Part shown: one piece after another, positions 2,106-6,673 of the stretch
Layout: each line of letters begins with the position of its first letter
Numbering within the stretch: position 1 is the stretch's first letter
From: a virus
Reading direction: 5' to 3' (one strand)
IMG/VR virus record: IMGVR_UViG_3300037485_000774
Coordinates: 1 to 27,503 of that record
DNA length: 27,503 nucleotides
Program-made: the position numbers and the translations under genes
The notes under the pieces: model-generated
The model's input: only the letters and a program-made list of their open reading frames with translations
Databases searched by the model: none
Told to the model about the DNA's origin: nothing

Positions 2106-2759
2106 ATGAAAACGATTTACTCAGCGTTTGTGAAAGCTCAAAAAGCCTTCGGTCCTGCACTAAAAACCAGCACTAATCCGCATTTCCGTTCTAAATATGC
2201 TGATTTGTCGGCATGTATAGAGGCTGTGATTGATGCGCTTAATGATAATGGCATTGGACTCATACAAACCTTGCATGAGTGCGATAACGGCGTGGTCGTC
2301 GAAACCATCTTTATCCATGAATCAGGAGAGTCTTTGTCGTGTGGTAAACTTCACGTGCCTGCAACAAAACAGGACGCTCAAGGATTTGGGTCAGCTTTAA
2401 CTTATGCCAGGCGTTACAGCGTTATGGCAGCCTGTGGCATGGCACCAGAGGACGATGACGGCAACGCAGCAGTTAAAGATTATAAGCCGCAAAAGACTGG
2501 TCGGACACCGGGAGAGATTGTTGCCGGGAAGAAAGTTTTAGAGGGTGATGTAGCCAAAATCGTGCAAGCTGTGGCACCCGGTAAATTGACGCCGACAACG
2601 TATGACCTGTCGCCACTGGATGAGACAAAACGGCAAGCGGCGAGGGAATACTTGTTGCAAAATGGTGCCGTAGAAATTTCTGAAAATAGGCTTAGAACCA
2701 AATTCAGACTTGAGCGGCTAACACAATATGTAGTTGATAACGATGAGAAAAATACCTGA
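2106..2759 (+). CDS. ERF-family single-strand annealing recombinase
   Basis: A 217-residue protein matching the ERF superfamily of phage single-strand annealing proteins (P22 Erf type). These bind ssDNA and promote annealing of complementary strands in phage recombination and replication. Diagnostic features are the N-terminal AFGPALKTSTNPHFRSKYADL segment (broken here by the 20-residue limit), the IEAVIDALNDNGIGLIQ helix, a strand pair ending GESLSCGKLHVPATKQDAQG, and the hallmark GSALTYARRYSVMAACGMAPEDDDGN near residues 97-122. The family core occupies about residues 1-125. The C-terminal ~90 residues are a less conserved linker and tail, as is usual. GGAGGG at 2094-2099 precedes the ATG. 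The 3' end overlaps the next gene by 17 nt. Confidence 0.93.
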   Translation: MKTIYSAFVKAQKAFGPALKTSTNPHFRSKYADLSACIEAVIDALNDNGIGLIQTLHECDNGVVVETIFIHESGESLSCGKLHVPATKQDAQGFGSALTYARRYSVMAACGMAPEDDDGNAAVKDYKPQKTGRTPGEIVAGKKVLEGDVAKIVQAVAPGKLTPTTYDLSPLDETKRQAAREYLLQNGAVEISENRLRTKFRLERLTQYVVDNDEKNT

Positions 2760-3187: not shown

Positions 3188-3260
3188 TGAGGTGTAGCTC
3201 AGTTGGCAGAGCAGGTGACTGTTAATCACCACGTCGCAGGTTCGAGTCCTGCCACCTCAG
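3188..3260 (+). tRNA. tRNA-Asn (anticodon GTT)
   Basis: A complete cloverleaf is visible. The acceptor stem is TGAGGTG (3188-3194) with CACCTCA (3253-3259). The D stem is GCTC (3197-3200) with GAGC (3209-3212). The anticodon stem is GGTGA (3214-3218) with TCACC (3226-3230), and the loop CTGTTAA holds anticodon GTT at 3221-3223. The T stem is GCAGG (3236-3240) with CCTGC (3248-3252), and the loop is TTCGAGT. The discriminator base is G3260, as in bacterial tRNA-Asn. CCA is not encoded (CAC follows), so it would be added by the host enzyme. Confidence 0.95.
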
Positions 3261-3267
3261 CACCCAT

Positions 3268-3441: not shown

Positions 3442-3981
3442 TTACTTCGTGTCACTGGCTTCATCCTGGTGGCTTTTAGAGGTATCACTGAACCTACGAC
3501 GTAGTCCAGAACGCTCTGCAAACGTGTTCAGCTTCTCAAAATCAAGATTAGAATCATTCATGGTACTTTTATTGGTATCTTTTAATGGTAATACTTTTAA
3601 TGGTAGTGGATCATTTTGATCCCTATCACCGGGATCATTTTGATCCCTATCGTGATCAATTTGATCCCTATTCCGATCATTTTGATCCCTATTCTTGATT
3701 GGGATCATTTTGATCCCATTTGTAGTCAAAAACCGACCTCTCCCACGTACTGTTTCTGTCAAAAATTGCAGGTGTAAAAGTCGCCTGATATGTCGTTTGA
3801 CTGTCGGCGCTGACATTCTTAACTCCGCCGCTATGTGGGTGATGCTTGCAAAGCATGGCCGCTTGTTACGTTGGAAACGTTTCACATACGCATAAATAAG
3901 CGCTTCATGATGCGATAGCCCTGCGTCAACTAGCGCAAAGTCGACTATCCCAATGCGGTTTTTTTTGGTATTATTCTTCAT
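3442..3981 (-). CDS. Winged-helix replication initiator-like protein (lambda O-like organisation)
   Basis: A 179-residue protein. Residues 12-75 form a winged-helix domain of the type in phage replication initiators: LSHHEALIYAYVKRF, then SITHIAAELRMSAPTVKRHI, then RRLLHLQFL, with a GRGRFL wing. Residues 89-125 are a low-complexity linker of RDQND-type repeats, encoded by the five DNA iterons (3608-3720). The C-terminal ~50 residues are charged and lack a known domain. In phage lambda, the O protein binds iterons lying inside its own gene, between the DNA-binding and helicase-loader-binding domains; this gene reproduces that layout in a shorter form (lambda O is about 300 residues). No strong Shine-Dalgarno precedes the ATG (only AAGAG 11 nt away). 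A transcriptional regulator is the main alternative. Confidence 0.7.
   Translation of the reverse strand: MKNNTKKNRIGIVDFALVDAGLSHHEALIYAYVKRFQRNKRPCFASITHIAAELRMSAPTVKRHIRRLLHLQFLTETVRGRGRFLTTNGIKMIPIKNRDQNDRNRDQIDHDRDQNDPGDRDQNDPLPLKVLPLKDTNKSTMNDSNLDFEKLNTFAERSGLRRRFSDTSKSHQDEASDTK
3565..3605. repeat. Three A+T-rich 13-mers, candidate DNA-unwinding element
   Basis: Near-identical 13-mers lie at 3565-3577 (ACTTTTATTGGTA), 3578-3590 (TCTTTTAATGGTA) and 3593-3605 (ACTTTTAATGGTA). They lie immediately beside the iteron array and inside the same gene, where they encode a repetitive VLPLK-type segment. A+T-rich direct repeats next to iterons are the usual melting region of iteron-controlled origins. 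The unwinding role is inferred from that analogy. Confidence 0.55.
3608..3720. repeat. Five palindromic iterons inside the initiator gene (putative replication origin)
   Basis: Five copies of a 19-bp unit, consensus GGATCATTTTGATCCCTAT, start at 3608, 3632, 3653, 3674 and 3702. Each core is a dyad, GGATCA-TTT-TGATCC. Copies 1, 2 and 5 are perfect; copy 3 has TGATCA-ATT and copy 4 begins CGATCA. Spacings are 24, 21, 21 and 28 bp, so the copy nearest the gene's 5' end is read in a different frame (GIKMIP instead of RDQND). That argues for selection on the DNA rather than on the protein. Each copy carries two GATC sites, ten in 107 bp (3609-3715). The likely role is binding of the initiator and origin control. 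Confidence 0.75.
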
Positions 3982-4004
3982 GAGAGGAAACTCTTATACA
4001 TTGA

Positions 4005-4047
4005 AAAAGCCACTCAGTTCCCGGCAAGGTTTCGAGTGGTTTTTTTT
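4005..4047. terminator. Hairpin terminator, possibly bidirectional, between the two replication-module genes
   Basis: CCACTC (4010-4015) pairs with GAGTGG (4034-4039). Five A residues lie before the left arm (with one intervening G), and eight T residues follow the right arm (4040-4047). On the + strand this is a good intrinsic terminator. On the - strand the stem is followed by a C and T5, giving weaker termination. It lies between the helix-turn-helix gene and the initiator gene, both on the - strand, so it could attenuate initiator expression. Confidence 0.6.
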
Positions 4048-4249
4048 ATTCCTGTTGTTCAATCAACCAACGCTCCACTTCTGATATCTTAAAGCGATAT
4101 TCAATTCCTACCTTAATTTGAGGCAAGCCCTTCTTTATCAGCTTGCGCACCGTCGTTTCCGATATGTCAAAGTGTTGGCACACAACCTTTATCGGAACAT
4201 ATTTTTCCGGTGCCGCTGTAATAATTGATTCGTTTTTGTCTTGTGTCAT
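4046..4249 (-). CDS. MerR/excisionase-type helix-turn-helix protein
   Basis: A 67-residue protein made almost entirely of a MerR-like winged helix-turn-helix of the excisionase family (HTH_17 type). Residues 15-64 show YVPIKVVCQHFDISETTVRKL, then a GLPQIKVGIEYRFKISEVERWL ending typical of these domains, where the wing (YRF) leads to a final helix. Such proteins act as excisionases, directionality factors or small repressors. No integrase is visible, so a regulatory role at the adjacent divergent promoter region is at least as likely. It is upstream of the initiator gene on the same strand. The Shine-Dalgarno sequence is weak. Confidence 0.8.
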   Translation of the reverse strand: MTQDKNESIITAAPEKYVPIKVVCQHFDISETTVRKLIKKGLPQIKVGIEYRFKISEVERWLIEQQE

Positions 4250-5113: not shown

Positions 5114-5365
5114 ATGAAACTTTACTCGCTATACAAAATAACCGACGGTCGATGGGAAGTTGTGCTCCATATTCGTGAAAACGACGATTACAAGTTTGCC
5201 TACGAGCCACGACCCGACATACGCGCTCTCATTGACGAGCACTACAACGTAGAGCCACACGAAATGGCCAAGCTACTAATCGAGCGAGTGTTGCACTGTG
5301 ACGCAGTAGAGGTGCATACGTTGTCAGGCCAAGGTTTCTATATGGAGCGTCATGACCATGACTAG
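5114..5365 (+). CDS. Hypothetical protein, 83 residues
   Basis: The ATG at 5114 follows the previous stop by 1 nt and is preferred to an ATG at 5069 lying within the upstream gene. The protein starts with a three-strand-like segment (KLYSLYKITDGRWEVVLHIR), continues with a charged middle (DDYKFAYEPRPDIRALIDEH) and a helix (MAKLLIERVLHCDAVEVHTL), and ends with HDHD. No domain is recognised. It overlaps the start of the GIY-YIG gene by 14 nt and supplies that gene's GGAG. It is presumably a cytoplasmic early protein; the function is unknown. Confidence 0.65.
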   Translation: MKLYSLYKITDGRWEVVLHIRENDDYKFAYEPRPDIRALIDEHYNVEPHEMAKLLIERVLHCDAVEVHTLSGQGFYMERHDHD

Positions 5366-5792
5366 ACAAGCAGAAATTTTAGACCCTGATTTAATCGAAA
5401 CCCTTTTTAATTTATTTTTTCAATGCGGAGCGTTTGTCCCGTTGTTACAAAGACTGTGTTGGAACAATGAAAAAAAACAATCTGTGAAAGGTCCTGGTTT
5501 ATATTGCTTTACAGAAGTTCAACATAAAACCAAAAGTTGCAGCACGTTTTTATATGTGGGACGCACTCAGACATTGAATAAGAGATTTAATGAGCACAGA
5601 CGTGCTTGGCTAAACAAATACGTGTTGGCCAATCCACATTACTACCTGCATTGGGGTTATATTTGTGCAGAAAAACTTCCAAGTAATTTCGGTTGTGTTG
5701 GTCAAGTAGAAACGTGGTGTTGGAAAAATAAAGAAAAACTAGGCTTGAGCCTTGGGACAAAGTTAATTGGTACGGACTATGAGTCAGATTAA
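5352..5792 (+). CDS. GIY-YIG family nuclease
   Basis: A 146-residue protein with the GIY-YIG nuclease signature in order: GLY (residues 49-51, in GPGLYCF), YVG (68-70, in FLYVGRT), Arg71 and Arg78, His82 (NEHRRAW), and Glu120 (GQVETWCW), the expected metal-binding glutamate. The nuclease module thus spans residues 45-125 and has no recognisable DNA-binding extension. The N-terminal ~45 residues are helical and rich in aromatics. In phages these enzymes act as homing endonucleases, host-DNA nucleases or repair nucleases. Because the gene overlaps both neighbours by 14 nt, it looks integrated into the operon rather than freshly inserted. GGAG at 5344-5347 could serve ATG 5352 or 5358. Confidence 0.82.
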   Translation: MTMTRQAEILDPDLIETLFNLFFQCGAFVPLLQRLCWNNEKKQSVKGPGLYCFTEVQHKTKSCSTFLYVGRTQTLNKRFNEHRRAWLNKYVLANPHYYLHWGYICAEKLPSNFGCVGQVETWCWKNKEKLGLSLGTKLIGTDYESD

Positions 5793-5952: not shown

Positions 5953-6065
5953 AAATTCGCGAGTCGATGGAAAAGTTTTACGGCAAAAAACAAGGTGACT
6001 CTGTGTTTTATGCGACAGTAAACAAAGGCAAAATTAAAGGTGCCGAGAAGAAAAAAAAGAAATGA
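5928..6065 (+). CDS. Small basic conserved phage protein (45 residues)
   Basis: A short frame with a strong AAAAAGGAG (5914-5922) before ATG 5928. It encodes 45 residues: MPLTKKGLKIRESMEKFYG, then a middle with GDSVFYATVNKGKIKG, and a poly-lysine end (AEKKKKK). This pattern (a start like MPLTKKG, then a Y-G-KK-G motif, VFYA..NKG.I.G and a lysine tail) is familiar from many tailed phages as a small protein of unknown role. The high Lys content suggests nucleic-acid binding. Its TGA overlaps the ATG of the next gene (ATGA). Confidence 0.75.
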   Translation: MPLTKKGLKIRESMEKFYGKKQGDSVFYATVNKGKIKGAEKKKKK

Positions 6066-6673
6066 ACGCAAACATCCCTCCACTTAAAATCTTGATACCA
6101 GCAGCGTTTTTAACTCAAGACGATACGGCATCAGGATTTGAGAAAGGGTACGCGTTCGCAATCATTTCGCACAAAGGCAGGGCATTACAGTTTCACGTTC
6201 TTCTGGAATCTGGCGCACACTTTCGGCACATACCATTGCACTGGTTGTTACACGACGAGCCAACGGTTGAAAGCACTAACCTTGAAGACCTCCAACTATG
6301 GGATTGCTTTAGCTTTAAGCCAATCGTAACGGTTTTTGATTTCTTAAAAGATTATCAGTGTGATGTGTTGCTTAAAAACAAATCTGTGGTGTCTGGTACA
6401 TATTACTGTACGGTCGATTGGCTGGCTGATTGCGATACTACCGCAGGTTTCTTGCACCAACCAGACCAAAATAAATGTGGGCATATCATACTGCTCGATG
6501 ACGGAAGGATCTGTTGTTTGCCGACCAATCGTGTCTGTTTCAAAGATGCGTTTTTTATTGGGAACGCACCCAACGCAGCTGACCGAAAATACAGAACCAT
6601 AGACACAATATTCCAGGCTGAAAACAGCGATAGGTGGTCTGTAGCTAACACAGACGAAACGTTTTATCGGTAG
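6062..6673 (+). CDS. Conserved phage protein of unknown function, beta-rich
   Basis: A 203-residue protein starting in an ATGA overlap with the preceding gene. Visible blocks are KGYAFAIISHKGRALQFHV, LESGAHFRHIPLHWLLHDE, a DLQLWDCFSFKPIVTVFDFL core, GTYYCTVDWL, and CGHIILLDDGRICCLPTNRV near residue 145. I recall this as a conserved family in marine and freshwater phages without assigned function. The alternating strand pattern and short conserved motifs suggest a mostly beta fold. No signal peptide or nuclease motif is seen. Its place among nucleases suggests DNA metabolism, but that is context only. Confidence 0.75.
   Translation: MNANIPPLKILIPAAFLTQDDTASGFEKGYAFAIISHKGRALQFHVLLESGAHFRHIPLHWLLHDEPTVESTNLEDLQLWDCFSFKPIVTVFDFLKDYQCDVLLKNKSVVSGTYYCTVDWLADCDTTAGFLHQPDQNKCGHIILLDDGRICCLPTNRVCFKDAFFIGNAPNAADRKYRTIDTIFQAENSDRWSVANTDETFYR

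Follow-up and report, generated by a model that had tools for sequence, protein, structure and literature searches.

A probable replication origin inside the gene of a small winged-helix initiator in an uncultivated phage group

A minus-strand gene in the record of a small-genome phage assembled from environmental DNA carries a row of palindromic repeats within its coding sequence, and the question that it raises is whether these repeats form a replication origin bound by the protein that the same gene encodes. The window analyzed here, to which all coordinates refer, is an IMG/VR virus record of 27,503 bases. From comparisons among related genes we conclude, with a probability of about 0.82, that the gene at 3442-3981 is likely to encode a small origin-binding initiator and to contain the replication origin.

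Five dyads of the form GGGATCA-www-TGATCCC are located at 3607-3717 (Table 1). The sequence-only reading of this locus had placed five 19-bp palindromic repeats (starts at 3608, 3632, 3653, 3674 and 3702) inside an initiator-like minus-strand gene of 179 residues. The gene and the five places stand, but the dyads are 17 bp long, each 19-mer having extended two or three bases beyond its dyad, and just two of the dyads are perfect palindromes: from iteron 1 to iteron 5, the arms are complementary at 7, 5, 6, 7 and 6 of 7 pairs, and the spacers are 28/21/21/24 bp. The pattern GGGATCANNNTGATCCC, searched over the whole window with up to three mismatches, gave five matches, all at 3607-3717, where 0.60 were expected, and none of 100 shuffles reached five. 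Mapping of the reading frames confirmed that one repeat (at 3702, the fifth of the earlier reading) is read as GIKMIP in a different frame from the four RDQND-type copies: iteron 1 falls in frame +0, whereas the other four (RDQND/RDQID) fall in frame +1. The window has 75 GATC sites, ten of them within the array. DnaA-box matches in the window numbered four against 3.5 expected, with none near the iterons. The GC-skew analysis that had been suggested as a check was performed; the skew tracks coding strand and gene orientation and has no mark at 3.6 kb, so it is uninformative for this purpose.

Table 1. Positions of features at the initiator-like locus and of the neighboring SSB-like gene
Feature	Position	Strand	Description
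Initiator-like gene, 179 aa	3442-3981	-	Winged helix, disordered linker (coded by iterons/AT-rich repeats), short C-terminal helix
Winged-helix domain, residues 15-88	3718-3939	-	AF2 block, pLDDT about 82-95
Recognition helix, residues 58-70	3772-3810	-	AF2 helix; residue 59 co-varies with iteron class
Iteron 1	3701-3717		Nearest winged helix, perfect 7-bp dyad, read GIKMIP
Iteron 2	3673-3689		Read RDQNDR
Iteron 3	3652-3668		Read RDQIDH
Iteron 4	3631-3647		Perfect 7-bp dyad, read RDQNDP
Iteron 5	3607-3623		Adjoins AT-rich repeats, read RDQNDP
AT-rich repeat 1	3593-3605	-	TACCATTAAAAG, read LPLK, putative unwinding element
AT-rich repeat 2	3578-3590	-	TACCATTAAAAG, read LPLK, putative unwinding element
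AT-rich repeat 3	3565-3577	-	TACCAATAAAAG, other frame, read DTNK
C-terminal helices, residues 148-165	3487-3540	-	AF2; LNTFAERSGLRRRF motif; candidate partner-binding tail
SSB-like protein, 103 aa	4303-4614	+	PC4-like model; acidic tail ending DDLIPF

Two alignment scans of IMG/VR returned the same set of 24 related contigs, all of them uncultivated viral contigs, and 21 non-identical genes, that of the window included, were extracted for the family comparisons. Searches of isolate phages, plasmids and GTDB genome contigs by tblastn and pattern scan found no relative of the protein and gave only local matches of 31-32%.

Directly 3' of the dyads in the sense of the gene, a second array was found that is absent from the sequence-only reading: three 12-bp TACCAwTAAAAG repeats at 3565-3605. 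The GC content of the 50-base block 3550-3599 is 24%. The repeats were considered as the single lowest-GC extreme of the window, but in AT content they only tie for third among its 40-mers. Two to three copies of the TACCAwTAAAAG type are present in 20 of the 21 family genes, and the total of 52 in the 21 genes compares with 3.5 ± 1.8 after synonymous recoding. The position and composition of the repeats are those expected of an unwinding element, a putative role in which they would be predicted to melt.

The AlphaFold2 (AF2) model of the protein, built from the 21-sequence alignment, has residues 96-147 disordered, and this segment is encoded by most of the iterons together with the AT-rich repeats. 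The protein matched HTH_36 in Pfam (1.2e-7) and the PHROG replication initiation families 270, 678 (O-like) and 428 (E 3.8e-9 to 6e-8; 270 and 678 at 3.8e-9 and 1.5e-8), the PHROG matches spanning the winged helix and the linker. The profiles of these three families are 346-455 positions long, whereas members of the window family have 143-218 aa and are without the C-terminal part. A fold search of the PDB returned generic MarR/ArsR winged helices only; structure matches in a viral library were helix-turn-helix and replication-initiator proteins. The C-terminal LNTFAERSGLRRRF motif is common to the window protein, L162, L163 and L165, and the family has three types of C-terminal tail (LNxxxexxGLkkRF, DD(L/I)PE and FVMxWDExRQVMVRRK). 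By comparison within the family the tails seem exchangeable, and the three types may be partner-binding motifs. Many of the family initiators end in DD(L/I)PE or DE(I/L)PE, which resembles an SSB tail with E in place of F.

The half-site differs between relatives, and it does so in concert over all copies within a gene. Among the 21 members the classes are GGGATCA (10, including the window), GGGGTCA (4), GGTGCCA (3) and GCGGCCA-like (4), and in the last of these (group D) the iteron copies are few and degenerate. Residue 59, at the start of the recognition helix, tracks the half-site in 21 of 21 members: it is P with GGGATCA, S or C with GGGGTCA, and R with both GGTGCCA and the GCGGCCA-like sites. 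Its mutual information with iteron class is the highest of the winged-helix columns; column 90 equals it but is itself encoded by an iteron. Two broader proposals were discarded. P59 is not a universal code for GATCA dyads, since the initiators L130, L129, L010 and L197 have GATCA dyads and other residues at that position, and Dam/SeqA-type control through GATC clusters is not a general function, since half-site classes B-D are without GATC.

On a tree built from the winged-helix domain without the recognition helix, the iteron classes are intermixed, with seven changes needed against a minimum of three. L160 (GGTGCCA, R59) and L164 (GGGATCA, P59) are sisters on this tree (support 96/94). The DNA of their genes is 97-100% identical upstream and 90-94% identical downstream, but 43-80% identical over the helix plus iterons. 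Because the two genes are nearly identical on both sides of this divergent block, the pairing of helix and iterons appears to change as a unit. Such unit changes may have arisen by recombination or by rapid co-evolution, and recombination of the block may lie behind the switches. Two independent switches fall on well-supported branches, with helix and iteron changing in the same direction, and six pairs are counted on the best tree; with only two switches on well-supported branches, a sign test on them cannot reach significance. From the co-variation of helix and half-site we infer that the winged-helix protein binds the iterons.

Two relatives, G001 (33,084 bases) and G002 (25,105 bases), align to the window in circular permutation and close its gap with genes for terminase and portal and with small genes. 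The capsid protein shares 33% identity with its counterpart in Myxococcus phage Mx8, and the terminase shares 41% with its counterpart in Pseudanabaena phage Pam5. The phage genes also include an annealing protein of the Erf type and a small nuclease. The annealing protein is of the Erf type in the window's group (2106-2759, plus strand), and in L090, L148 and L164 a different sequence, RecT-like by eye, occupies a comparable position among the genes. DnaB_C, IstB/DnaC, lambda-P and phage-integrase models gave no match in nine to ten near-complete family records in scans that detected their controls, and PHROG scans of window and family proteins gave no polymerase or primase. Neither Pfam nor PHROGs recognized the 103-aa protein encoded close to the initiator gene (Table 1). 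Its family is present in 17 of the 21 loci with tails ending in DD(I/L)PF, and its AF2 model has four strands and a long helix, with weak top matches to PC4/Sub1. Single-strand-binding proteins carry tails of this kind, and the model and tail suggest that the 103-aa protein is a probable phage single-strand-binding protein.

Other features of the neighborhood were recorded. A tRNA-Asn gene (GTT; 3188-3261, plus strand) adjoins the initiator gene, although nine family records gave no integrase match. A 67-aa excisionase-like HTH gene (4046-4249, minus strand), present in five loci, immediately precedes the initiator, and between the two a hairpin with a T run was noted by eye at about 4003-4047. 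On the plus strand, a 146-aa protein (5352-5792) has a weak GIY-YIG match (4.8e-4), and a 203-aa protein (6062-6673) conserved in nine loci matches a PHROG that is oddly labeled ferredoxin (3.3e-37).

These observations bear on other functions that the dyads could have. In a partition system they would be a centromere-like array, and the winged-helix protein would segregate a phage-plasmid. The fold search did return winged-helix centromere binders (AspA/pNOB8), TubR is a weak match by sequence (E 0.42), and iterons with concerted evolution are likewise expected of such a system. However, the PHROG matches are to replication initiation, an AT-rich repeat array would be unneeded and the phage would be left without a visible initiator; no ParA/TubZ/ParM-like partner was found among the scanned proteins of the window and the gap region, several small ones of which match nothing. 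We consider partition improbable, and to the same degree a function of the protein as a transcription regulator with the array as its operator, whether for autoregulation or roadblocking. Repressors of the MarR/ArsR type, for which a dyad-binding winged helix is typical, head the fold matches, but the profile matches are to replication proteins, the array sits in the gene's 3' half, and a promoter scan found two candidates against 2.2 expected, none at 3560-3720. Five phased dyads together with AT-rich repeats fit an origin better. Less probable still is a conserved unit of RNA, in which GGGAUCAAAAUGAUCCC hairpins would form in the mRNA or an antisense RNA. Every dyad is able to fold into a stem of 7 bp closed by a 3-nt loop, and two are terminator-like in the plus direction, but hairpins would not explain why the half-site co-varies with a residue of a DNA-recognition helix; several copies have a disrupted arm (e.g., GGGATCAAATTGTCATC in L148), and the geometry equals that of the protein-bound iterons of lambda.

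Whether the repeats are maintained as DNA or as peptide was addressed by comparison of reading frames and by synonymous recoding. The spacers in L090 are 24/21/22/24 bp, compared with 28/21/21/24 bp in the window, and the differences of +4 and -1 cancel to +3, a compensated frameshift by which iterons 2 and 3 are read in other frames in the two genes. These two iterons are identical at 16/17 and 15/17 positions in DNA, whereas their peptides are RDQNDR and RDQIDH in the window and GIKLIG and GIKMIP in L090; in L164, four of the five copies are in frame 0. When the window gene was recoded synonymously, the observed sum of arm matches was reached in 79 of 100,000 trials, and a test on dyad number in the window alone gave a modest P of about 0.04. 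Over the 21 members, 65 dyads with at least 6/7 arm matches were present against 17.9 ± 3.5 after recoding (maximum 30), a figure that describes an excess and gives no probability because the sequences are related. The proposal that DNA, not peptide, is under selection is thus borne out by frame switches within and between genes and by the recoding excess; in the alignment of related phages that had been suggested as a check, the dyads persist in relatives whose peptide has changed, and the reverse was not found. Selection on a DQND peptide repeat with secondary DNA resemblance, which could appeal to the single frame of four window copies and to the partial dyads that repeated DQND can yield (after recoding, the five dyad places of the window still show 24 of 35 arm matches on average), is effectively ruled out by the frame switches and is further opposed by the recoding excess and by the disorder of the coding linker in the AF2 model.

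The preferred reading, an origin within the initiator gene, has a precedent in phage lambda, where dyad iterons inside the gene for the O initiator are followed by an AT-rich stretch (PMC7466680, PMC3349717). The lambda record has four iterons in gene O, spaced by 20, 24 and 23 bp and of the form (A)TCCCTCA-AAA-CGAGGGA, and then an A-rich stretch. The window shares with ori-lambda the 7-3-7 dyad geometry, the TCAAAA/TCAAATTG center, the strand orientation and the AT-rich side, and its spacing of 21-28 bp compares with 20-24 bp. It differs in having five iterons with a half-site unlike that of lambda's four, and its initiator of 179 aa, compared with 299 aa for lambda O, has no room for a long C-terminal domain; in the AF2 model the C-terminus is a short helix only. 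Alignment of the family to lambda O by hhalign gave a probability of 0.1%, and Phage_lambda_P was absent from nine family records. Neither result supports membership of the lambda O protein family. Dyads inside the initiator gene in the window and its relatives, regular spacing and an adjacent AT-rich region are nevertheless features of a lambda-type in-gene origin. The earlier analogy to lambda, in which iterons lie within the initiator's own gene, gains from the AT-rich repeats beside the dyads, the helix co-variation and the initiation and O-like PHROG matches, and by that analogy the best reading is that the window origin would work like ori-lambda, whereas membership of the lambda O family lacks support.

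Two other systems are informative. In the B. subtilis phage SPP1, gp38 binds repeats inside its own gene at oriL, adjoining an AT-rich unwinding element (PMC6316719); SPP1 encodes the loader gp39 and the DnaB-type helicase gp40, whereas no such gene was found in the window family. In RepA of the V. cholerae PLE satellite, the DNA-binding domain and iterons co-vary and have been exchanged as one module, with the C-terminus conserved (PMC8263062); RepA belongs to the RepA_N family and has an intergenic origin, whereas in the window helix and iterons lie within one gene.

A pattern scan of IMG/VR and genome contigs found clustered GATCA-www-TGATC dyads in other winged-helix initiator genes (L033, L055, L137, L136, L129, L130, L139 and L197), just after the wing. 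These genes are unrelated or distant, and their dyads are in mixed frames; five of the seven proteins scanned match PHROG replication initiation, O-like or DnaD-like families. In-gene dyad arrays are probably common in phage initiators, judging from these scans, and the arrangement itself is to that extent less novel. L197 is located in a Caldilineaceae MAG contig. In L191, from a Competibacteraceae MAG contig, a long ORF that starts, by eye, like a bifunctional primase-polymerase contains dyads with the same core.

A mechanism can be proposed for the in-gene origin. Winged-helix dimers would bind the five GATCA-www-TGATC dyads through the recognition helix, with residue 59 helping to set the half-site, and the nucleoprotein complex would strain and open the adjoining TACCAwTAAAAG repeats. 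The host replication machinery would then be brought in, perhaps via the short C-terminal tail, and the phage SSB-like protein would cover the single strands. With no recognizable phage helicase, loader or polymerase, the host machinery would have to be recruited. Origin activity, melting and host-helicase recruitment are predicted on these grounds. A more specific proposal is tentative, and we think it somewhat more apt to fail than to hold: helix and iterons would be an exchangeable single-gene cassette whose specificity is switched mainly at residue 59 (P for GATCA, S/C for GGTCA, R for (T/G)GCCA), and the minimal initiator would use a short C-terminal tail, itself exchangeable, to recruit the host helicase with no phage loader.

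Taken together, these results place a likely replication origin in a phage group known only from metagenomes. Initiators and dyads of this family form naturally matched pairs, among them the near-identical L160 and L164 with switched helix and iterons, and pairs such as these make a change of origin specificity in a winged-helix initiator readily testable. Since helicase, loader and polymerase appear to be lacking, one may ask how small a phage initiator can be and still recruit the host replisome.
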